Below are positions 35,003-46,439 of a stretch of 46,439 nt of DNA, piece after piece (positions within the stretch are counted from its first letter, which is position 1; each line of letters opens with the position of its first letter). The stretch spans positions 1 through 46,439 of the forward strand of contig PNOH01000034.1 in NCBI GenBank assembly GCA_013824715.1. Direction: 5' to 3'. Source of the stretch: Odoribacter sp. Lineage in GTDB: Bacteria > Bacteroidota > Bacteroidia > Bacteroidales > Prolixibacteraceae. Below the pieces are notes generated by a model. The model searched no databases and was not told the origin of the DNA. It was given only the letters and a program-made list of their open reading frames with translations. The translations under genes and the position numbers were made by a program.

Positions 35003-36358
35003 ATGGAAAAAATTTTGATCATCGAAGATAATAAGTTGATCCGTAAAACCATAAAGGAGACACTCAGCAAGGTTGGATACACTGTTATTGAGGCAGAAGA
35101 TGGTGAGGCGGGCTTACATCTTGTTCGTTCAGAACACCCTGATCTTGTAATTACCGATTTTCAGATGCCAGGTATTGACGGACTTGAAGTCCTCTCCGAG
35201 ATACGTAAATTAAATGTTGCGATTCCTGTAATAGTACTTACTGCTCACGGGCATGTAGTGTTAACGATCAAATCAATCCAGCTTGGCGCTTTTGACTTTC
35301 TTGAAAAACCAATTGATCCGTTTCAGCTCAAATCCACTGTTCAATTGGCCCTTAATTCGGTCAAAACCAGCAATAGCCTGAAAGAGGTTGTCTGCGAGGA
35401 TATTTCCAGCGATAGTATGCCCAAAGATAATACAATAGTAAGCAAAGCTCCCCAGATGAAGGAAATCTTCAAAAACATTGGACGTATCTCGATGAACAAG
35501 GTGAATGTGCTGATCCAGGGCGATACCGGTACCGGCAAGGAACTCATTGCCAGGCTCATTCATTTCTCGGGAATTACGCGCGATAAACCATTGGTGGTCG
35601 TAAACTGCAACGCACTTACAGAATCACTGCTCGAGAGCGAACTTTTCGGACATGTTAAAGGCTCCTTTACGGATTCCATACGCGATAAAAAAGGCAAGTT
35701 TGAACTTGCCGGGGAAGGCTCCATTTTCCTCGACGAAATTTCTGAAATATCGCTCAACATTCAGGTAAAACTACTGCGCGTTATCCAGGAACTGGAATTT
35801 GAAAAAGTAGGTGGTGAAGCTACCATACCGATGAAAGCCAGGATTATAGCCGCCACAAACAAGAGCCTGGAAAAACTGATCGAACAGGGAAAATTCAGGG
35901 AAGATCTCTATTACCGGCTCAAAGTATTTACAATCAACCTGCCGCCCTTGCGCAAGCGTAAGGAAGACATACGCGACCTTGTAATCCATTTCTTGCATAA
36001 ACTTAACAAACAGTTAAATAAAAACGTGATCAAGATTGGCGAAGGTGTTATCGAAATGCTTCAGCAGCATTACTGGCATGGAAATGTACGCGAACTTAAA
36101 AACACCATCTTACAGGCCATTATTATGTCGAAAAACGATGTGCTGGAGAAAGAAAATATCACCCTTGTCCGTCTGCATAAGAATGCTGCAAACGAGCTGC
36201 AAATGCCTCAATTCCGGTCGTTGGCAGACCTGGAGAAATATCACATCAAGCATATACTTGATGTGGTAAAATGGAACAAACTGGAAGCTTCCCGGATTCT
36301 CGATATTACGCGGCCTACCCTTAATGCCAAGATTGAAAAGTATAAACTTGTACAGTAA
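35003..36358 (+). CDS. NtrC-family sigma-54-dependent response regulator
   Basis: The 451-residue protein has a receiver domain (1-120) with the phospho-acceptor Asp of DLVITDFQMPG and Lys near 102 (LEKPI), a AAA+ domain with Walker A GDTGTGKE and Walker B GSIFLDEIS, and a Fis-type helix-turn-helix at the C-terminus (EASRILDITRPTLNAKIEKYKL). The GAFTGA loop is GSFTDS; the Phe and Thr are kept, and GAFTDA-type variants are common in Bacteroidota, so sigma-54 contact is likely retained. No histidine kinase is adjacent. It precedes the usher-like gene's 3' end in a convergent arrangement, which does not show functional linkage. Confidence 0.93.
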   Translation: MEKILIIEDNKLIRKTIKETLSKVGYTVIEAEDGEAGLHLVRSEHPDLVITDFQMPGIDGLEVLSEIRKLNVAIPVIVLTAHGHVVLTIKSIQLGAFDFLEKPIDPFQLKSTVQLALNSVKTSNSLKEVVCEDISSDSMPKDNTIVSKAPQMKEIFKNIGRISMNKVNVLIQGDTGTGKELIARLIHFSGITRDKPLVVVNCNALTESLLESELFGHVKGSFTDSIRDKKGKFELAGEGSIFLDEISEISLNIQVKLLRVIQELEFEKVGGEATIPMKARIIAATNKSLEKLIEQGKFREDLYYRLKVFTINLPPLRKRKEDIRDLVIHFLHKLNKQLNKNVIKIGEGVIEMLQQHYWHGNVRELKNTILQAIIMSKNDVLEKENITLVRLHKNAANELQMPQFRSLADLEKYHIKHILDVVKWNKLEASRILDITRPTLNAKIEKYKLVQ

Positions 36359-36424: not shown

Positions 36425-38509
36425 TTATTCAGGGATTTCATCCTGCTCCGGTCGCAGCACAAATTCAAGACCATCTGCCACATCGCCGTCAAAACCGGCA
36501 GAAATGGTAAAGTGCAATGATGAAGGTGAAGCTGTCCAATGCAATTTGTGCAATTGGGCGGTATCTATCCTGGCCTCATATTCACCTGGCGCCAGGCCCA
36601 GGTAACTGAAATAGCCATCGGATTCGGAAAGTGTGCGTGCCGCCAGGCTGGAATCGCTGCGGTAGAAATTAACGATAATACGCCCCTGCCCTTTCTGTCC
36701 GCCACCAACGCCAAAGTAAACTGTTCCGGTTGCTTCGCCTACTACCGCAACCGGAACCTCAATCAATTTGAACATGTTGGGACTGATGGAGGCACTGATA
36801 GTTTTTTTCCGTATCTGCCATGCGATGTTATCGAAATTGGTTCCGTCGAGCGTAACCAGATAGTTGGTATACGGTTCCAGGTCGAATACGCGGATGGTGG
36901 TATCCTTATCATTGAGTTCAATTCGGCCTCCATTGATATGAAGGTTAAGTCCGTATGCTTTGGGTTCGTTTGGTTCGTGCCGGCCATTACAATTCAGACC
37001 GAGGTAAGGTAACAGCGTAATGCCACCTTTGCCCACACTTGCGCGGCTATTTGCCCCTACGTAGTTTGTTTTTGCATCCACCATCACGCTCCCACTGGCC
37101 GATTGCACCAGTGTAGTGGCATTGTTGCCCCTCCTGGCTGAAAAACCGGCCTGGGCAAAAGAGAAATCGTAGCGAAATCCCACTTCCATATTGCTGAAAT
37201 TACTTCTGAAGTTCTGTTCGTAGGACAAATTCATAAACCCATGTTTGAACAGGTGTTTTTCCAACCCACACTTTACCGAAATAAATTGGCCGTGGTTGTA
37301 ATCGAATTGTGCTTGTGGCGTAAGGATGAAGGCGCCCGGAAGTTTGAATGAAAGAGAAAGGTTGCTATAGGTATAAGGATGAGCGGGATCAGAGAGCAGG
37401 GAATAGGTGGTAAAGTTGGTGTTTACACCTGATATGGCGCCCGAAAGCAATAATTCGGCAGTGGTGTATTTCGTCTGAGGCATGACAATCTGATTGAGCG
37501 TAAGCCTCGAAAAAACGGCAAAATTCGCGCCACGGATGGGCACTGATATTGCAACTTTGCGCTCTTCGAGGTAATTGTAGTTAATGGCCTTCTGATCTTT
37601 GTCATATTTGGTATAATTGAGCTCGAACTGCACATTCGACGGCATACGGTAACTCAGAACACCTTTTGATCTTACGCCATAAGTATATTCTCCGGATATC
37701 AGCAGGCTCGAAGCCAGCCTGAGCGAAGCGCTCACGAATGGCATTATATTGCCCGATGTTTTCGACGAAAGATATTCGACACCGCCACCAACCGTAAAGC
37801 GACGGAAAACACCGTATCTAAAATTGGCCCTGGAAAAACGGTTATGATGACTATCTTCAACCATGCCGGCGCTAACCTTATATTCGAAATCGCCCACAGG
37901 CAGAAAGTTAAATGGAATGCTGATGTTCTGCTCTTTGGAATGCTCTTTGCCCCATGGGCCATAAAATTGCAGTTTCACGCCCGTGCTACCGTAAACAAGG
38001 GGAACCTCAAAGGTGAAAAAACCCGAAGCATCTGCTTCTGTATAATCTACTAAAGCATCATTTATATACAATTCTACTGTCCAGTTAGGTTCAGTATTTT
38101 CACTAATTATATATGTTCCTGTAGCTTTTCTTACTGTATTTGGTGAATTATTAAAACTTGCACCTACCAGAGGTCCCCTTAAAAAAGCAATACTTTGCGC
38201 ACCTATTTTTCCAACTTGGGCTTGTTTAATAAAAGTATTATCATTGTCTATCCAACGCCAATTGTAATAGAGTTGGCGTTTATCAAATTTTGTCTGATCG
38301 TAATAATTGAACGCTACTTTAGCTTCTCCAAACAACAATTCGCTACCGAGTCCAAGAGAAAATCTATTGTTTATTTTTTCTCCTGCTGCCTGATTTGAAG
38401 AAACAGCCCAATCCATCACACCTCCATTAAAAAGATGGTACTTTCTGCCTATAATGGTATCAATTACTACTACGTTTTTAGATTGCAGCTTGGTTACATT
38501 TTGACGCAT
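36425..38509 (-). CDS. Outer-membrane usher-like protein, main fragment (frameshifted, N-terminus cut off)
   Basis: The 694-residue open frame is the larger piece of an interrupted gene. It begins with the tail of an N-terminal domain, then RFSLGLGSELLFGEAKVAF and long runs of alternating strands (about 40-470) that fit a beta-barrel. Midway come ELYINDALVDYTEADASGFF, FYGPWGKEHSKEQ and FLPVGDFEYKVSAGM, a block I recognise as the region seen in fimbrial usher-type proteins. After the barrel are YLGLNCNGRHEPNEP, LEPYTNYLVTLDG and two Ig/CNA-B-like beta domains. It would sit in the outer membrane and guide subunits. A 4-bp duplication near 38530 detaches the N-terminal piece (38514-38997). Composition shifts near 38035. 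It is the last gene of the operon. Confidence 0.6.
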   Translation of the reverse strand: MRQNVTKLQSKNVVVIDTIIGRKYHLFNGGVMDWAVSSNQAAGEKINNRFSLGLGSELLFGEAKVAFNYYDQTKFDKRQLYYNWRWIDNDNTFIKQAQVGKIGAQSIAFLRGPLVGASFNNSPNTVRKATGTYIISENTEPNWTVELYINDALVDYTEADASGFFTFEVPLVYGSTGVKLQFYGPWGKEHSKEQNISIPFNFLPVGDFEYKVSAGMVEDSHHNRFSRANFRYGVFRRFTVGGGVEYLSSKTSGNIMPFVSASLRLASSLLISGEYTYGVRSKGVLSYRMPSNVQFELNYTKYDKDQKAINYNYLEERKVAISVPIRGANFAVFSRLTLNQIVMPQTKYTTAELLLSGAISGVNTNFTTYSLLSDPAHPYTYSNLSLSFKLPGAFILTPQAQFDYNHGQFISVKCGLEKHLFKHGFMNLSYEQNFRSNFSNMEVGFRYDFSFAQAGFSARRGNNATTLVQSASGSVMVDAKTNYVGANSRASVGKGGITLLPYLGLNCNGRHEPNEPKAYGLNLHINGGRIELNDKDTTIRVFDLEPYTNYLVTLDGTNFDNIAWQIRKKTISASISPNMFKLIEVPVAVVGEATGTVYFGVGGGQKGQGRIIVNFYRSDSSLAARTLSESDGYFSYLGLAPGEYEARIDTAQLHKLHWTASPSSLHFTISAGFDGDVADGLEFVLRPEQDEIPE

Positions 38510-38513
38510 TGCT

Positions 38514-38997
38514 TCAAGTCTTGCTTGTTTGTTTTACCATCGGCAATTCGGAATCGGCTTCGAGTTTAATGGATAAGGAACGAAAATTAAATACCATATT
38601 TAAACCAAAAGCTTCATTCAGCATACTTGATTCTACATAAATTTTGCCCAATTCTTTTACAATTCCATTCTCGGATTTAATAGTTCTATCCCCTCTGGTA
38701 ATTTGCTTTGATTCAAAATCAATCGAGTAAAGGGTGCTTTCATTTACAATAAACCCTTTTAAAATAGTTCCATTAATATCTGCTACACAAGAAATTCCCA
38801 GTTTATTGAAGAGCTCTTCTACATTGATATAAACAAGATTTTGATCGGTTATAATGGCATCTACTTCAAATCGTAAGTAGCCTTTTACAATTATTTCAAC
38901 AGGTACTTCATCAAATTTATTTATTGGATCAAGGGGAATTTCTTTAGTATAATCACGTGCTTGAATAGTATAAAAGTTAAAGAAAACTAATATAAAA
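38514..38997 (-). pseudogene. N-terminal fragment of the usher-like gene, cut by IS and frameshift
   Basis: Reading from the IS edge the frame begins ...FNFYTIQARDYTKEIPLDP and runs to ELPMVKQTSKT-stop at 38514. Deleting one CAAA from the tandem CAAACAAG (plus strand near 38525-38535) gives VKQARLEAM and joins the main frame at 38509. The fragment has two small beta domains (VPVEIIVKGYLRFEVDAIIT; LVYINVEELFNKLGI) typical of the region before usher barrels. No start codon remains: the IS sits where the signal peptide should be, and without it only a TTG start (MIDFILVFFNF) is available. A sequencing error at the repeat cannot be excluded. Confidence 0.65.
38988..38997. repeat. Target-site duplication of the IS (left copy)
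   Basis: TAATATAAAA is repeated directly at 40429-40438, consistent with an IS4-family insertion (usually 10-12 bp). The run of A leaves one or two bases of uncertainty. Confidence 0.7.
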
Positions 38998-40428
38998 AAT
39001 CACTATCAACCGATAAAACTAAAAACTTGACAATAATATGCCTTTAACCCTTGTTTTTACAAGGGTTATTCTTTTAAAAATAAAACCTACCTCCCCATAT
39101 TTTAGAACAAGGCGGCTTGTAGATTTGGTGGTTTGGTTCTTTTTAGTCGTTTTGTATAGGTTCTGCGACTGTTTTCGACTACCCAAAACACATCAAGATT
39201 GCTGATTAAATGTATTCTGACCAAAGCTGCTGTTGTCGAAAACGCTTTTTTTGTTTTAGATTTTGCTTTTGAGACCGTTAGAAGTAATTGTGCAATGAGT
39301 GTAATCCAAATTTGGCATCTTAATTCCGTTTTCGGTCTCTGAATAAAAATAGTGTAGTTGGAAATTTTGTTTGAGTTTCTTGAAAAGTAACTCTATTTGC
39401 CAACGAATTTTATAGATTAAAGCAACTTCTTCGTTGCTAATGTCAAAATTATTGGTAATAAATTCGTACATTCTACCTTTGTCATCTCGGTACGTAACCT
39501 TACGTAAACAAAGTGTTTTCTCTTGATTTTCTTCTTTATATTTTAGGTGAATATGTTCTTCTTTGAGTACTCCAAAACCCGAGTAGGCTTGTGTTTGACA
39601 AAATAGTTCTTGTACCACTTCATAAACTGCATTTTTCTTTAATCGGCACACAAAATTGATTCTCTTTTCAGTAAATATTGCAAATTGCAAGTAATGATTG
39701 TAAGCTCTATCAAAGACAATCATACTGTGTGGTGCAAGAGCTAAGTCTTGAATAAAATTTTTATCGTGCAGTTTAGCTTCGCTAATTTTTACAAATGTTG
39801 GTGTTTGTGAATGGGCATCGATAAGCATATGAACTTTTAAGCCGCCTTTCTTCTTGCCTTCGCCTTTTGGATCGCGTCCAACACCCTTCATTACTTGAGA
39901 AAATAGCCTGATTGTACTGGAATCGAATATGAAAAGTTTATCAAATGAAATCTTATCAATTCGGCTGACCGACAAAAGGGGTTCAAAGTGTTTGAGCAAC
40001 AAAAAGTAAAATTCTTTAAAAAATTCATTATCTCGTTCTCTTAATCCGTCGCCAGCCGTACTTTTTGCAGGGGAATTGTCAAACCCTAAATGGTTTAATT
40101 TGCCTTGCATTGCCAACATTCCATCGCAAATTTCGCCCATAGAATCACAACGGCTAAAAACGCCAAAAAGCATCGTTACAAGTTGTGTCCAAGCAGGAAA
40201 AGACTTGTAATATCGATCTGTTTGATGCTTTTTTGCAAGTAGATCGAACTTGTTTTTTGGAATAAAATCTATTAGTTGTTTAAAAATCGGCTGACCGACA
40301 AACTTTTTTTCAATATCTTTGGAACTCATTACTTTTGGTTTTTTACACGCAAAAAGTATGAAAAAAAGGGCTTACTCTTAAAAAAGTAGCCCTTTATCTT
40401 AAAAAGTTAATCGGTTAGTAGTGGTTTT
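38998..40428 (-). mobile_element. IS4-family insertion sequence
   Basis: The element is about 1431 bp. Terminal inverted repeats are imperfect: the left end reads AATCACTATCAACCGAT and the right end, on the reverse strand, AAAACCACTACTAACCGAT, with CACTA-x-x-AACCGAT shared. It is bracketed by a 10-bp direct repeat and contains one transposase frame. Terminator-like hairpins lie near both ends (AACCCTTG/CAAGGGTT at 39046-39067 and AAAGGGCT/AGCCCTTT near 40367-40393), which would limit read-in. It interrupts the 5' end of the usher-like gene. Confidence 0.8.
39102..40329 (-). pseudogene. IS4-family transposase, frameshifted near its C-terminus
   Basis: DDE residues are seen in FIFDSSTIRL (first Asp), IVFDRAYNHY (second Asp) and YKIRWQIELLFKKLKQNF, the Y-x2-R-x3-E-x6-K motif of IS4-type enzymes. 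The uninterrupted frame stops at 39256, ending with an unlikely tail after NGIKMPNL. One extra base near 39315 is implied: skipping it gives QIWITLIAQLLLTV, the usual IS4 C-terminal helix, and the frame then continues to a stop at 39102, for about 408 residues. Either the copy is dead or the base is a sequencing error. Confidence 0.75.
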
Positions 40429-40438
40429 TAATATAAAA
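40429..40438. repeat. Target-site duplication of the IS (right copy)
   Basis: TAATATAAAA, identical to 38988-38997, immediately outside the right inverted repeat. Confidence 0.7.
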
Positions 40439-40552
40439 TCAATCAAAAGAGCCGCTGTTAACTAATAAATTTCCCAACAAAATAAATGGCAGTAGTAAAA
40501 TTGTAAAAACTATGCCTAAAATTGAAAAAAAAAGATACTTTACAGACAGACT

Positions 40553-43282
40553 CTAATTATCCTTCGGCTTCCTTATATTGATCTTCCTTTCTTGTTCATT
40601 AATAATAAATTGCAGTGGTTCTATAGCGGATTGATTTTTCAGATCAGCAATCAGCACACTTTTTGTTAACTGAAAACTTGAGTCAAAAGAAGAACTGATT
40701 ATTCTTACTTCGTACCTGTCTTCGGGTATGCTAAAGGAAAACGAACCATCTTGGGTAGTTAAAGTTGTAAATGTTTCGCCCGTTGAGTTAACAGCTATTA
40801 TCTTAATGTTGTTGATGCTGAAAGTCTTCTTCGAGTTTTGCGCTTTGTTCAAGATCACTTTTCCGGTAAAGAAAGATGTCTTTTTATAAGGAATATAAAC
40901 ATTTGTTTCTTTGGTCACATCAATAGATTGTTTGTAGGCCAATCTGGGTATCCAGCTTTTCTGAGCGCTTAAAGTAAGATCAATATCATAAACGCCCTTA
41001 CTGATGTTCCTGTAAGCAACTTTCCCATCTGCGTCGCTAATAAATGCTTTTCCATTGATTAGTATTGTTGCATTAGAAAGCGGTTCATCGCCCTCATTAT
41101 AAATACTATCAGCGTTGATATCTTTAAAGAGCATAATTTCCATTGTTTGAAATTTTCTTATCCCGAAAATTGGAAGGTTAAGATTTTTACGGAGGCTTAT
41201 GTTTATATTTGAATTGCCAATTTTATTAAAGTTTCTTGAATAAGATATTTTTAGTTGTATAGATGATTTGCGAGGATTAAAAATCAAATCAGATTTTAAG
41301 GAAACGTTTTTAGTATTATCGCTATAATTTAAATTAAAATCCACCTGATTCCTGAGCTGCAAGGTCTTTTTGAAAAGTGAATTTTCAATAAACAAATTTC
41401 CGTTCAGCCTTTCAGGAATCTGACCGGTTTTTAGGAAAGCGTATAGATCACCTAATTGTGCGAAGCCATATTCGTAGCGGGCATTTAGTCCTATATTTTT
41501 TAGCTGAAAGGTGCCTCCACCAACAAAACTGGTTGATTTAATCGAATCAAGGCCCGGAAGACTGACCTTGCCCACACTAACAGCAAGATTCAAAGTGTTC
41601 TGCCCAAAACTTTTATTCATAACAAGGCCTAATTTATAAGTACTGCTTTTTACAGAATCAACTCCCGCTTCTGTTTGTTCAAGGCTGGATACGGATAAAG
41701 TATTGCTCCATGTTTTTCCTGTAAGACCATATTTAAGACCGTATTCCTTTTTGTTTAAACCGAGCTGGTTCTCATACACCCCTGACTCCTGTAAACTGTT
41801 CCGGTAATCCATATTCCAAAATACAGAGTAAGATTGTGGTTTGTTTATAAAACCTATATCATTGGTGGTACTGAATAAACCTTTACTAAAGCCTGGATAA
41901 TATTTTGATGCCTTGTCAATATTCGACCGTATATTAAACTTTTTAATTTTACTATTGAGCTGAAATGCCGTTCGCGAAGACAATCTCCCGGCAGTAAGGG
42001 CAGGTTGATTAATATCTTCAAACCCTCCTGCCTGTAGGAGACTCACGGTTGTGTTTTCCCCTAGAGACCTTTTCAACAAAAGTTCCGAGATATAGCTGTT
42101 TATACCTCTATCAGGGTCAAAGAATCCATAATTTTCAATGCTAAATGAACCTTTTTTTAATGTGAACTGATGCTGATAAGTAAATTGTGACGTATTGTTT
42201 AACTTACTTTTTATAGCTGAAAGCTGGATCTCCTGTGTTTTTTTTCGTAAAGGAATCGTAATTCGAACGCCATAACCCATCATTTGGAAGTTTTTGAAGC
42301 CAGTCTGATCTCCTGCGCTGATATTTATTCCTTTAGACCGGTATTGAGCCTGATAGAAGGACTGCCCTCCCTTAGCTCCATAAAGACTTCCGCTTTGAAA
42401 GTTGATGGAAAGTGCACGATCCTCCTTAAAATCCAGAGTCATTTCCCCGTTCACAGTAAAGATCTGGCCATCTGTAAAGGCATTTTGCGCACTTAGCTCT
42501 AAGGTAAGAGGTAAATTAAACCAGGGGCTTTTATTAGCCATGAGAGATGAGTTCAGAGCTGATATTACTTGTACGGCTGATTGCTTTTCTTTTGATTTGC
42601 TGCTTGCTTCGACAATAATTCTTACTTCTTTAGCATTTTGAAACCGGTCATCCGCAGGCAGACTTACCTGTATAAGTGTATCAATCTCCGGTGGAACTGC
42701 TATATTTAGAATATCCGGGATATTAAGACCTACATTATCTTTAAAACTTAGTGAGATATGCTCTGAAATATTTCCCAAGTTCCTTATTAAAACCGGGAAT
42801 GTGGCATTTTCACTTGTTACCTGCTTAAAGATGCTGTTGTTGGGTAAGCTAATCTTCCATAAGGAGCGGGATTTTACGAAGCATAACATTTTAAATTCCT
42901 CACTTATGTTCTCCGAGGGCATCAGAAATTTTAATGTGGATGTATAGCTTATATCGCTTTGAGCTATTAAGGGTGCAGCTATCCGGAACGGGATTATCAG
43001 CGTTTCTCCCGGCTGAATGGTATAAAGCTTTTGCTGATCAATTATTTTGGACCAGTCAACAGGGATGTCAAGGTCAATATTAAATGAGTGGGAAGCCTGC
43101 CCTGTATTATTTACCCTGATATTATTAAAGACATAGGCATTTCCTTCAAATGTCAAAGAATCCTTTAATAACGATATTTCGAGGTCAGAAATTCTTTTTA
43201 TCGGCTTCTGACCATATACTGAATTTGCAGAGAATTGAATAAAAATAAAAGTGAAGTAAAAGTATATTATATTTTTACTCAT
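40553..43282 (-). CDS. Ig-like / beta-barrel fusion protein of the usher-like operon
   Basis: The 909-residue protein has a signal peptide (about 1-24), then two Ig-like beta domains at about 30-135 and 140-245, of the COG1470/NEW3 kind (VFNNIRVNNTGQASHSF; VLIRNLGNISEHISLSF). Residues about 255-690 form long alternating strands consistent with an outer-membrane beta-barrel (LTLELSAQNAFT... ). The last 200 residues are CNA-B or regulatory-like domains (DINADSIYNEGDEPLSNATI; TTLTTQDGSFSFSIPEDRYE). I infer a second barrel of the same secretion or assembly system, with its N-terminal Ig domains possibly taking the chaperone's place. It follows the four subunit genes and precedes the usher-like gene. 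Confidence 0.6.
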   Translation of the reverse strand: MSKNIIYFYFTFIFIQFSANSVYGQKPIKRISDLEISLLKDSLTFEGNAYVFNNIRVNNTGQASHSFNIDLDIPVDWSKIIDQQKLYTIQPGETLIIPFRIAAPLIAQSDISYTSTLKFLMPSENISEEFKMLCFVKSRSLWKISLPNNSIFKQVTSENATFPVLIRNLGNISEHISLSFKDNVGLNIPDILNIAVPPEIDTLIQVSLPADDRFQNAKEVRIIVEASSKSKEKQSAVQVISALNSSLMANKSPWFNLPLTLELSAQNAFTDGQIFTVNGEMTLDFKEDRALSINFQSGSLYGAKGGQSFYQAQYRSKGINISAGDQTGFKNFQMMGYGVRITIPLRKKTQEIQLSAIKSKLNNTSQFTYQHQFTLKKGSFSIENYGFFDPDRGINSYISELLLKRSLGENTTVSLLQAGGFEDINQPALTAGRLSSRTAFQLNSKIKKFNIRSNIDKASKYYPGFSKGLFSTTNDIGFINKPQSYSVFWNMDYRNSLQESGVYENQLGLNKKEYGLKYGLTGKTWSNTLSVSSLEQTEAGVDSVKSSTYKLGLVMNKSFGQNTLNLAVSVGKVSLPGLDSIKSTSFVGGGTFQLKNIGLNARYEYGFAQLGDLYAFLKTGQIPERLNGNLFIENSLFKKTLQLRNQVDFNLNYSDNTKNVSLKSDLIFNPRKSSIQLKISYSRNFNKIGNSNINISLRKNLNLPIFGIRKFQTMEIMLFKDINADSIYNEGDEPLSNATILINGKAFISDADGKVAYRNISKGVYDIDLTLSAQKSWIPRLAYKQSIDVTKETNVYIPYKKTSFFTGKVILNKAQNSKKTFSINNIKIIAVNSTGETFTTLTTQDGSFSFSIPEDRYEVRIISSSFDSSFQLTKSVLIADLKNQSAIEPLQFIINEQERKINIRKPKDN

Positions 43283-43314
43283 TTGTAATTTGATCTGGTA
43301 AAAATACTATTATT

Positions 43315-43857
43315 TTATTGCCCACTCAAGGTCATGATGATAGGAATAGTATAATTAGCAGGATCCACTTCATAACCAGGGATTATCTTTAACTTCAAAT
43401 TAAATGTGTTACCCGTGACAGTTTCATTACCCAGAATTCCTGTCTTGGTAACTACCTGAAAATTAATATTAAAAGGATTAAAAGTTCCAAAGTTAGCGTC
43501 ATCTACACTTGTAGTGGCAAATGTAAAATTGGCGAATGTAAGCGGAGAGTTGATTACCGCTGGACTATCAGCATTGGGTTCAGCTGTTATGGCTCCAATC
43601 TCGGTTGTCAGTTTCCAGTTTACATTGGCTTGAACGACAAGGTGAATTGCAGAACTCTCAAGGCCATTTTCCAGATCGCTTGTACTTGCAAAAGAAGGTA
43701 AGCTAAGTGTTGAAGTACTTGTTAAAACAATGGTAGGTGAGATGGTTGTGGAATAATTATTCGAATAAATCGTCTGGTTTAATTCGCGATTCCCTTGAGC
43801 TAAAGCTGTTAGAGCAGAAAGCTGTAAGAATAATATGAATATAAGTGCTTTTTTCAT
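43315..43857 (-). CDS. Secreted pilin-like subunit 4
   Basis: A 180-residue protein with a signal peptide (MKKALIFILFLQLSALTALAQ). The mature part has an early alternating stretch (YSTTISPTIVLTS), the core STSDLENGLESSA...NWKLTTEIGAI and the ending LKIIPGYEVDP then YTIPIIMTLSGQ, a pattern shared with three neighbours. The all-beta sequence recalls SCPU/CsuA-B-type fimbrial subunits. It starts seven bases after the previous stop, and the 909-aa gene follows after 32 bases. It is the subunit nearest the barrel genes. Confidence 0.65.
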   Translation of the reverse strand: MKKALIFILFLQLSALTALAQGNRELNQTIYSNNYSTTISPTIVLTSTSTLSLPSFASTSDLENGLESSAIHLVVQANVNWKLTTEIGAITAEPNADSPAVINSPLTFANFTFATTSVDDANFGTFNPFNINFQVVTKTGILGNETVTGNTFNLKLKIIPGYEVDPANYTIPIIMTLSGQ

Positions 43858-43864
43858 AATAATC

Positions 43865-44374
43865 TTATAAGGGACTAATAGTATAAATTATTGGTATGGT
43901 ATAAGCTGCCGGGTCGACAGAAAGACCTGGTGTGATTTTAAACTTCACACTAAATTTTTTGTCATAACCTTGTTTAACCCCCGTAAGAATTGTTGCCAAA
44001 GTAGAAGTAAAAACAACAGCTGGATCATATACATCATCCTGGTCGGGAGATACCATATAACTAAAGTTGCTGAATGTTAGTGGGTGCAGGATGGATGCCG
44101 GACCACCAGGAACTGGGGTTAAAATAATTGACCCAATTTCCGTATCCACTTTCCAGTCGTTATTTGCTTTTACTTTGAATAGCACAGCCGAAGTTAATAG
44201 ACCATTGGTAAGGTCGCTTAATCCGGCAAAAGAAGGTACTGTTATAGCACCGGATTCAAGCTGTATATCCACAAAAACAGGAACATCCGCAGTCATTTGT
44301 GCCTGCGTAAAACACGTGATGCCAAGCAACAGCATGGTAATTAATAGTTTTTTTATGTCGTTTACCAGAGTCAT
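43865..44374 (-). CDS. Secreted pilin-like subunit 3
   Basis: 169 residues with a signal peptide (MTLVNDIKKLLITMLLLGITCFTQAQ). Shared family markers are LSDLTNGLLTSAVLFKVKAN, DWKVDTEIGSI and KITPGLSVDP/YTIPIIYTISPL. The alternating segment TADVPVFVDIQLESG follows the leader and could serve as a donor strand. It starts 16 bases after subunit 2 and is followed seven bases later by subunit 4. The most compact of the four. Confidence 0.65.
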   Translation of the reverse strand: MTLVNDIKKLLITMLLLGITCFTQAQMTADVPVFVDIQLESGAITVPSFAGLSDLTNGLLTSAVLFKVKANNDWKVDTEIGSIILTPVPGGPASILHPLTFSNFSYMVSPDQDDVYDPAVVFTSTLATILTGVKQGYDKKFSVKFKITPGLSVDPAAYTIPIIYTISPL

Positions 44375-44390
44375 TAATCCATTTTTAATT

Positions 44391-44924
44391 TTATTGCGCG
44401 GTAAGCGTATATATTATTGGAATAGTATAGACACCTGGGTCAACCTCATATCCAGGTATAATCCTGAACTTTAAATTAAATGTATTGCCGGTTTTCTGAA
44501 TATTACCCTTAACGCCGGTTCTTACATTAGCTATCGAACCAGGGAAGGAAACTATATTGCTATAGAGAAAATTATCAGCGGGCGTAACATAATATTTAAT
44601 ATTAGTATAGGATAAGGGTGCTGTTATAGTAGCCGGGCCAGCGCCTCCGGCAAGTGGGTTCGCTGTAATGGTGCCTATTTCGGTTACAAGTTTCCAGTCT
44701 TTATTTGATTTGATTACAAACCTTACTGCGGAGGTTTCTAGACCAACATCTATATCCGATTGTGTGTTAAAAGGAGGAATGGTAATGGCGCCCGATGTTA
44801 TCGCTAAGTTAATGCTGGCTATAATATTAGAAGACCCGCTTTTGTTTACAAAGTTCCCCTGTTGGGCATTTGCAGCAGAAGTTATGAATGCGAGTGCTAA
44901 CAGCATAAAAATCAGTCTTTTCAT
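44391..44924 (-). CDS. Secreted pilin-like subunit 2
   Basis: 177 residues with a signal peptide (MKRLIFMLLALAFITSAANAQ). Markers: QSDIDVGLETSAVRFVIKSN, DWKLVTEIGTI, RIIPGYEVDP and YTIPIIYTLTAQ. The early segment SSNIIASINLAITSG alternates hydrophobic residues. It is the first subunit after the terminator at 44967-45000, and only 16 bases from subunit 3, so it heads the lower-expressed part of the operon. Confidence 0.65.
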   Translation of the reverse strand: MKRLIFMLLALAFITSAANAQQGNFVNKSGSSNIIASINLAITSGAITIPPFNTQSDIDVGLETSAVRFVIKSNKDWKLVTEIGTITANPLAGGAGPATITAPLSYTNIKYYVTPADNFLYSNIVSFPGSIANVRTGVKGNIQKTGNTFNLKFRIIPGYEVDPGVYTIPIIYTLTAQ

Positions 44925-44966
44925 CTTATAAACGGATTTCTTTATTATACACTATAACTTAAATAG

Positions 44967-45000
44967 AAAAAGCGAAGCCATTCTAGACGACCTCGCTTTT
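44967..45000 (-). terminator. Terminator/attenuator after the first subunit gene
   Basis: On the minus strand AAAAGCGA pairs with TCGCTTTT across a 17-nt loop, and the second arm continues into CTTTTT/CTATTT, giving a T-rich tail. It lies in the 120-bp gap between subunit 1 and subunit 2, so most transcripts would end after subunit 1 and some would continue. Confidence 0.65.
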
Positions 45001-45044
45001 CTGAGTTATTTTATAAAACCAACCCTAATGGGAAAGCTAATGTC

Positions 45045-45575
45045 TTACTGAGCACTTATAGTATGAGTAACAACAACTGCATAAGTTCCCGGATCAACTA
45101 GGAAACCTGGAATTATTTTGTATCTAAGGGTAAATTCATTGCCAATTACCGCTGGAGCACCCCTTGGACCAGTTTTAATTTCAGTAGCAGTGTTAACAAG
45201 ACTACCAAATGCAGTAAAACTACTTACTGTTTGAGCATTTCCGTTTACTGTGCCCCATGCAATATTTTGTGGTGGCAATGGAAAAGCAATTGTGACTGGA
45301 CCACCTGTAATGGCAGTTCCTGTAATACTTGTAACCGCAGTATTTACTTTCCACAACCTATTTGATTTTACAGCGAAAGTAACAGGATCTGAAATCAGAC
45401 CAGTTTCTATATCAGCCTGGGTTGCGAAAGCACCAACTGTTGGAGTACCAGTTACAGCGGTATTAACCGAAGAACTAATTGCAACACTAAGATTTTGCAC
45501 TTGAGCGCTTGCAAATACGACCGTTAGCATTATAAATGATAACGTAATCGTGAATTTTTTGATTGTAATTTTCAT
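45045..45575 (-). CDS. Secreted pilin-like subunit 1 (likely major subunit)
   Basis: 176 residues with a signal peptide (MKITIKKFTITLSFIMLTVVFASAQ). The mature N-terminus is an alternating strand (VQNLSVAISSSVNTAV), followed by QADIETGLISDPVTFAVKSN, LWKVNTAVTSI and YKIIPGFLVDP/YAVVVTHTISAQ. It is the most diverged of the four paralogs and the first gene. A terminator separates it from the other subunits, suggesting higher expression and a main structural role, by analogy with fimbrial operons. Direct repeats and a dyad lie upstream. Confidence 0.65.
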   Translation of the reverse strand: MKITIKKFTITLSFIMLTVVFASAQVQNLSVAISSSVNTAVTGTPTVGAFATQADIETGLISDPVTFAVKSNRLWKVNTAVTSITGTAITGGPVTIAFPLPPQNIAWGTVNGNAQTVSSFTAFGSLVNTATEIKTGPRGAPAVIGNEFTLRYKIIPGFLVDPGTYAVVVTHTISAQ

Positions 45576-46312: not shown

Positions 46313-46439
46313 TTAGAGTCTGTCTGTAATGTCAGATATTTCTTTACAAATAAAATATCGAACAAGGATTAACGATTTTAGAATTATGAAGTTCAATTAC
46401 TTCTAAAATCAACAATCGATGTTCCTTGTTTGCTTATTT
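46313..46439. repeat. Possible end of another mobile element (runs off the window)
   Basis: TTAGAGTCTGTCTGTAA (46313-46329) is identical on the opposite strand at 40540-40556. After it, AACAAGGATTAACG...TTTTAGAA and TTCTAAAATCAACAATCGATGTTCCTTGTT form an imperfect inverted pair, with arms of about 23-30 bp, near 46364-46430. No coding frame is seen. It may be the left part of an IS or MITE continuing past 46439. Confidence 0.35.

Follow-up and report, generated by a model that had tools for sequence, protein, structure and literature searches.

A probable chaperone-usher-like fibre system beside a broken usher gene in an Odoribacter sp. contig

The window analysed here is the whole of contig C34 (PNOH01000034.1, 46,439 nucleotides) of the Odoribacter sp. 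assembly GCA_013824715.1; contigs C61 and C65, to which we refer below, belong to the same genome. It contains four genes for small, presumably secreted proteins (S1 to S4), a gene for a 909-residue protein with immunoglobulin-like (Ig) domains and a barrel region, hereafter the platform, and an usher-like open reading frame (ORF) of 694 residues. In an earlier, sequence-only reading these genes had been taken for a single operon of the chaperone-usher kind, devoid of a stand-alone chaperone. Our analysis indicates that the region consists of two neighbouring systems, designated type A and type B, rather than one operon. Type B, which comprises S1 to S4 and the platform, is probably a chaperone-usher-like fibre exporter with a new platform; the balance of the evidence leans modestly in favour of this interpretation. 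Type A is represented only by the remnant of a broken usher gene. What directly supports the proposal for type B is its gene order, the membership of its proteins in families, the conservation of the cassette, and profile similarities.

The type-B cassette and its chaperone

The distribution of the 909-type family was assessed with a profile search (E ≤ 0.001) of 376 genomes of the class, after the OmpA tail of one member had been trimmed; a first, two-sequence alignment matched 377 of 394 genomes and was discarded because one member ends in an OmpA domain. The final search gave matches in 76 of the 376 genomes; many of the weak ones span the profile incompletely. Matches reaching 800 or more of the 920 positions were obtained in 35 genomes, the present one included, with 20 family labels among them (hand count). 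Named carriers, from a named-genome scan (three loci only), are Roseivirga thermotolerans, Litoribacter ruber and a metagenome-assembled genome titled Paludibacter propionicigenes.

To describe the gene content of type B, we examined 45 loci, namely the window, L033, L112, L113, L114 and 40 further stretches. The barrel protein is present in 42 of these (L112, L189 and L190 fail E < 1e-8), and a PapD-like chaperone gene lies in the same stretch in 35 of the 42, or in 33 of 39 when the window and the two loci used to build the profile are set aside. The chaperone gene is on the strand of the barrel gene in 23 of the 35 cases, where the usual arrangement is chaperone, then subunits 1 and 2, then platform; it is on the opposite strand in the remaining 12. 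Among the small proteins collected from these loci, S1 to S4 included, 76 of 79 fall into one superfamily at E < 1e-3; the count of subunits in barrel loci (42 of 42) is partly circular, its profile having been built from these genes, and was not used as evidence. We conclude that S1 to S4 and the 909-residue protein belong to a cassette that is common in Bacteroidia and consists of a PapD-like chaperone, subunits and an Ig-barrel protein.

The sequence-only reading had reported no visible chaperone and had assigned its place to the Ig-barrel protein. The contig indeed carries no chaperone gene, and a genome-wide search with Pfam PapD_N was negative, but a profile of the relatives finds one at positions 16720-17523 of contig C65, with an E-value of 6e-136. 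This is the only type-B PapD-like gene of the genome. Because 35 of the 42 barrel loci carry a chaperone, and because this genome has its own copy on C65, the 909-residue protein does not stand in for the chaperone. Near the C65 gene are a further two subunit-like genes and a partial copy of S4, 87% identical over 539 bases; this copy lies between the PapD-like gene and an ORF that we take to be transposase-like (L112 8137-11024, on C65).

Profile comparisons were carried out with hhalign, using family profiles against five Escherichia coli K-12 ushers or chaperones and reversed sequences as decoys; percentages given for these alignments are those of hhalign, and E-values refer to single comparisons. 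Aligned with the five K-12 chaperones, the type-B chaperone reaches 81.8% over 203 columns, against 0.2% for the decoy; with the type-A chaperone it reaches 99.4%. The Pfam PapD_N match stays below the cut-off. By these comparisons, the C65 gene encodes two Ig-like domains homologous to FimC and PapD, and its product would cap subunits in the periplasm.

Platform and subunits

The platform was compared with other families in three parts. Its N-terminal 250 residues, which had been proposed to form a chaperone-like Ig pair, do resemble the type-B chaperone (94.5%, E 8e-8; decoy 0.4%) and the type-A chaperone (85.0%), but reach only 9.2% with the K-12 chaperones. They do not correspond to the N-terminal domain of ushers, be it that of type A (0.6%) or of K-12 (0.3%). 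The final 201 residues correspond to the C-terminal portion of the type-A ushers (98.9%, E 1e-17; decoy 0.2%). The barrel region in between aligns at no more than 2.0% with four other barrels (FhuA, LptD, BamA and BtuB). A hidden Markov model (HMM) ranking over 1200 proteins of the examined loci gave a consistent picture. Outside the tagged family, the 14 best hits of the Ig pair are three further platforms, 10 type-B chaperones and one type-A chaperone, and 10 of the 14 best hits of the C-terminal module are type-A ushers; among the hits of the barrel region, ushers are not prominent. Judged from these comparisons, the 909-residue protein is a mosaic of a chaperone-like Ig pair, a barrel region for which no relative was detected, and a C-terminal module that type-A ushers also have. 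Some platforms and ushers carry extra C-terminal domains, with matches to OmpA, SPOR and TPR (L033 1438-5013, L156 5488-9297 and L043 8454-11441, respectively).

That S1 to S4 are paralogues, as had been proposed, is clear from their six pairwise scores, which lie 24.9 to 53.2 standard deviations above the mean of 200 shuffles each. The shared blocks by which they had been recognized are less uniform than described. SDL-x2-GL is exact in S3 and S4, but reads SDIDVGL in S2 and ADIETGL in S1; the tryptophan block occurs in S2, S3 and S4 as WK-x2-TEIG, not with the x3 spacing given before, and is missing from S1; IPG-x3-DP-x2-Y-x-IP is exact in S2 and S4, but not in S1 and S3. All four proteins begin with signal-peptide-like N-termini.

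A check of the subunit fold against chaperone-usher systems had also been suggested. An AlphaFold model of S2, built from nine sequences, has a mean predicted local distance difference test (pLDDT) score of 73.5 and a predicted template-modelling (TM) score of 0.62. Fifteen of its 16 best matches in the PDB are chaperone-usher pilins (E 1e-4 to 9e-4, TM-scores 0.30-0.50), among them FimG, PapA, FimI, FimA, CfaB and the pilin domain of PapG; rank 5 is TLP-1b. The predicted fold may point to pilins, but a relation by sequence was not found. Homology of the subunits to DUF4402 or to pilins was considered and rejected; values of 92.4-95.4% with the DUF4402-like subunits, obtained at first, were mostly due to the signal peptide. 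By eye, in four loci, the N-terminal stretch of subunit 1 (such as DVTITMDLQPILQLNM) shows alternating hydrophobic residues, and that of subunit 2 is shorter or different. From this pattern, subunit 1 would donate a strand and subunit 2 may sit at the tip.

Taken together, the conservation of the cassette, the profile similarities and the fold matches of S2 make an alternative chaperone-usher-like machine in Bacteroidota likely, as the sequence-only reading had supposed. We propose the following sequence of events for type B. The subunits, to judge from their signal peptides, would enter the periplasm and be capped there by the stand-alone PapD-like chaperone, which in this genome is encoded on another contig. 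The chaperone-subunit complex would then dock on the platform, perhaps via the chaperone-like N-terminal Ig pair, and the subunits would cross the outer membrane through its barrel and become linked as they exchange N-terminal strands. For type B, secretion, the exchange of strands and the fibre itself are what we infer from these resemblances.

The type-A usher remnant and the layout of the region

The identification of the 694-residue ORF as an usher, made at first from sequence patterns, proved correct. Aligned with the five K-12 ushers, the usher family profile reaches 98.2% over 582 columns; the reversed decoy gives 2.6%, and FhuA, LptD, BamA and BtuB give 0.4% at most. The motifs YINDALVDYTEADASGFF and LPVGDFEYKVSAG, quoted in the sequence-only reading, align with the FimD stretches around QNGYDIYNSTVPPGPFTIND and REGHTRYSITAG, which we take to be the plug and the strand that follows it. 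On this evidence, the ORF is most of a genuine usher, homologous across the barrel and plug region. Pfam Usher is not significant (absent at E up to 1 for the window ORF, E 0.14 for L034), and the N-terminal part of type-A ushers gives no alignment with the K-12 ushers (0.1%). When PDB sequences were searched with the profiles of usher A, chaperones A and B and platform B, no usher chain was returned, and the sole PapD chain came with chaperone A, at E 0.37; NCBIfam gave no family above cut-off for ten proteins.

The 694 residues are not the whole usher, however. The gene extends upstream into an N-terminal piece that had been overlooked; it lies in a frame offset from that of the ORF and matches 24 of 29 other aligned ushers by BLASTP. 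The start region has been lost on the side of the insertion sequence (IS). The usher gene is therefore broken in the window, with a frame break that may be real or may stem from a sequencing error. A further genome of the genus, whose assembly is a single 5.7-Mb contig, likewise has its type-A usher divided between two overlapping ORFs (L207 7786-10856). The ushers of L049 (6804-10988) and L055 (6693-11294) comprise 1394 and 1533 residues, respectively, and match the N-terminal piece only from about residue 600, i.e., they have several hundred extra residues in front.

Full or partial matches to the 694-residue protein were obtained in 87 of the 394 genomes sampled from the phylum. We examined 40 stretches for type A, 38 of which hold an usher of more than 600 residues. 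A type-A chaperone is present in 33 of the 38, in 30 of them within 400 bases upstream of the usher; this count is partly circular, since the profile was built from genes picked by position in 28 of the 38 loci, and in the other 10 loci a chaperone is found in five. The chaperone profile aligns with the five K-12 chaperones at 94.9% (reversed decoy 1.1%). Of the small genes beside type-A chaperones, 62 of 70 fall into one cluster, one member of which is DUF4402 by Pfam. Within the genus of the window, type-A ushers occur in six of 23 genomes, its own included. Four of the five other loci have a type-A chaperone and DUF4402-like subunits, and the fifth (L206), on a 12.7-kb contig, has a subunit-like gene and lacks a chaperone. 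At L207 and L206 the usher is convergent with a response-regulator-like gene, as in the window, and the DNA beside the usher is 85.6% and 72.9% identical to that of the window, respectively.

The cognate chaperone and subunit genes are absent from the window and were not found in its genome: a search with the type-A chaperone profile gave no match except the type-B gene, and no DUF4402 gene was found in the assembly (98.9% complete in 85 contigs, with a gap possible). Because the usher is broken and its subunits and chaperone were not found in the genome, we conclude from the gene content that the window usher is a broken remnant of a resident chaperone-usher operon. Type A itself adds a new member to an already known kind of system.

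Table 1. Features of the type-A and type-B region of the window
Feature	Position	Strand	Basis
S1, type-B subunit-like protein, 176 residues	45045..45575	-	paralogue of S2-S4; superfamily member
S2, type-B subunit-like protein, 177 residues	44391..44924	-	paralogue; superfamily member; AlphaFold model
S3, type-B subunit-like protein, 169 residues	43865..44374	-	paralogue; superfamily member
S4, type-B subunit-like protein, 180 residues	43315..43857	-	paralogue; superfamily member
Type-B platform, 909 residues: N-terminal Ig pair, barrel region, C-terminal usher-type module	40553..43282	-	Pfam CarboxypepD_reg at the C-terminus; hhalign of three parts
IS-like end GAGTCTGTCTGTAA, pointing outward, adjoining the stop codon of the platform gene	40540..40553	-	
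Second copy of IS-like end GAGTCTGTCTGTAA, outward-pointing, flanking the type-B segment on its far side	46316..46329	+	
Transposase ORF between type-B genes and usher	39256..40329	-	DUF4372 E 9e-27, DDE_Tnp_1 E 1e-26
Type-A usher, N-terminal piece; start region missing, frame differs from the rest	38514..38999	-	open frame; BLASTP
Type-A usher, rest (694-residue ORF)	36425..38509	-	usher family profile against K-12 ushers
Response-regulator-like gene, convergent with the usher	35003..36358	+	DNA identity to same-genus loci L207 and L206

The S genes are separated by 120, 16 and 7 bases, from S1 to S4, and S4 lies 32 bases from the platform ORF (Table 1). The IS-like end GAGTCTGTCTGTAA consists of 14 bases, and the contig breaks shortly past its second copy. 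The label of the response-regulator-like gene is presumptive. The end of the transposase seems to run on in a second frame (39102-39392), so the insertion sequence may be broken too; this region has a 70% identical stretch on contig C61. Elsewhere in the window, a similar block (KSCLNYPEYQLVFTRNDLQSG and KSCISYPEMRLMWTMSDLQSG) is seen by eye in the adjacent ORFs 552-1280 and 1171-2019, which have the look of paralogues.

Alternative interpretations and known systems

Several findings weigh against the interpretation of type B as a fibre exporter. There is no chaperone gene in cis in the window, and none was found in six further barrel loci (L033, L155, L159, L165, L176 and L192). L033 is the whole of a 9.7-kb contig, and the stretches of L165, L176 and L192 run up to the end of their contigs; L155, in turn, is devoid of a chaperone over a stretch of 19.5 kb. 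With the signal peptides removed, the subunits score 9.5% and 0.6% with the DUF4402-like subunits and at most 0.3% with pilins. The barrel region of the platform has no significant similarity to type-A ushers (13.4% over 56 columns) or to the K-12 ushers (1.0%), nor does the C-terminal module match the latter (0.3%), and domains like this module occur in other proteins as well. An AlphaFold model of the platform, from four sequences, has a pLDDT of 48, with values of about 60-80 for the first Ig domain and the C-terminal module and below 50 for the barrel, whose fold is too poor to settle the question. In a Foldseek search with this model, ranks 1-6 are FimD (E 5e-9 to 1e-7) with TM-scores of only 0.12-0.17, and a TIE protein, streptococcal pilins and sperm-axoneme proteins come between FimD and PapC, at rank 13. 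The FimD matches of so uncertain a model are a hint only of an usher-type fold.

The lack of a detectable relation between the barrel and ushers also suits a different role of the platform, that of a surface anchor or scaffold whose barrel holds Ig-fold proteins made and displayed by another route. Some relatives do end in peptidoglycan-binding-type domains, OmpA in L033 and SPOR in L156. The regular presence of a PapD-like chaperone nearby (35 of 42 loci) and the C-terminal module that the platform has in common with type-A ushers argue against an anchor, which we regard as unlikely, though it deserves to be kept in mind. A slightly stronger contender, if still on the unlikely side, is that the whole locus is decaying in this strain and that the type-B genes are leftovers as well, making no fibre. 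The broken usher, the IS-like ends on both sides of the type-B genes, the missing cis chaperone and the partial S4 copy near a transposase-like ORF on C65 are all compatible with decay, but S1 to S4, the platform gene and the C65 chaperone are intact open frames.

The single operon of the sequence-only reading, with two outer-membrane barrels, no chaperone, and the Ig-barrel protein standing in for it, would account for the adjacency of the genes on one strand and for the likeness of the Ig pair to the type-B chaperone. A transposase ORF that this reading did not mention separates the platform gene from the usher, however, and relatives of each part have their own chaperone without the other part, a partial hit at L185 aside. 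None of the 38 usher loci holds a 909-type barrel, and the ushers of the same genus sit with their own chaperone and subunits; conversely, no complete type-A usher is found in the other 41 barrel loci. At L185 (18327-19499), some 7 kb away from the type-B barrel, a 390-residue ORF that is cut by the end of the stretch has an E-value of 1e-7 with the usher profile. On the basis of these gene neighbourhoods we reject a chaperone-usher fusion in one operon, for which we see very little probability. Smaller still is the probability that the small proteins are type V (FimA/Mfa) fimbrillins as in Porphyromonas. The host belongs to the same phylum and probably to the same order, but Pfam hits up to E 1 for S1 to S4 include no fimbrillin family, which speaks against this assignment, and a platform and a chaperone are not known to be part of type V systems.

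How the two systems came to be neighbours is suggested by their distribution. Matches to the platform are missing from the other 22 genomes of the genus, and the type-B chaperone profile finds in the genus, besides the gene of this genome, one weak match only, which is the type-A chaperone of genome G009. Because type B was not found in these genomes, because type-A and type-B loci are otherwise separate, and because IS-like ends flank it, the type-B segment appears to have been brought beside the remains of the type-A operon.

Compared with the chaperone-usher pathway (FimC/FimD of E. coli and the archaic Csu type), type A has the PapD-like chaperone, an usher homologous to FimD over the 582 profile columns, and the order subunits, chaperone, usher; it differs in that the N-terminal domain of its usher cannot be aligned with K-12 and in that its subunits are DUF4402-like. 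Type B shares with this pathway the PapD-like chaperone, a pilin-like predicted subunit fold and a large predicted outer-membrane protein. It departs from it in having an N-terminal Ig pair where ushers carry another domain, in a barrel that cannot be aligned and in which no plug-like insertion was recognized, and in a subunit family that cannot be aligned with pilins. Type B is thus best called a variant of the chaperone-usher kind, and type A a new member of the known kind, broken here. The WxL-interacting proteins of Firmicutes are also two-Ig proteins, and the type-A chaperone profile weakly matches EfmWxLIP1 (E 0.009); for the type-B chaperone, WxLIP_PGBD stays below the cut-off, with weak matches only. 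These proteins are not known to work with an outer membrane or an usher.

Archaic chaperone-usher systems are reported from a wide range of phyla in PMC9452303. The fibres of Bacteroidota are discussed as type V fimbriae in PMC5789003, according to which chaperone or usher genes have not been described for P. gingivalis. According to the same paper, type V fimbriae of Bacteroidales (FimA/Mfa) resemble type B in that their subunits are thought to use donor strands; they differ in that no chaperone or usher is described there, and S1 to S4 have no Pfam match to such families. PMC8551831 treats chaperone-usher and type V fimbriae as separate groups, and the survey of PMC4793230 excluded chaperone-usher systems. 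Our literature searches, with most subscription papers and all bioRxiv preprints outside their scope, found no paper on ushers or 909-type platforms of Bacteroidota.

Two chaperone-usher-like systems thus emerge in a phylum discussed for type V fimbriae. If type B exports fibres, it would offer a natural means of finding out what parts an usher requires, as the chaperone and the C-terminal module are kept, the N-terminal domain is different and the barrel possibly so. It is conceivable, although we think the odds are against it, that type B is a separately built second fibre exporter of Bacteroidia, in which a free chaperone hands over to a built-in chaperone-like receiver and this to a barrel not descended from ushers. 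If true, type B would stand as a lineage of its own in chaperone-assisted pilus assembly, and a common one in a phylum that is known for its type V fimbriae.

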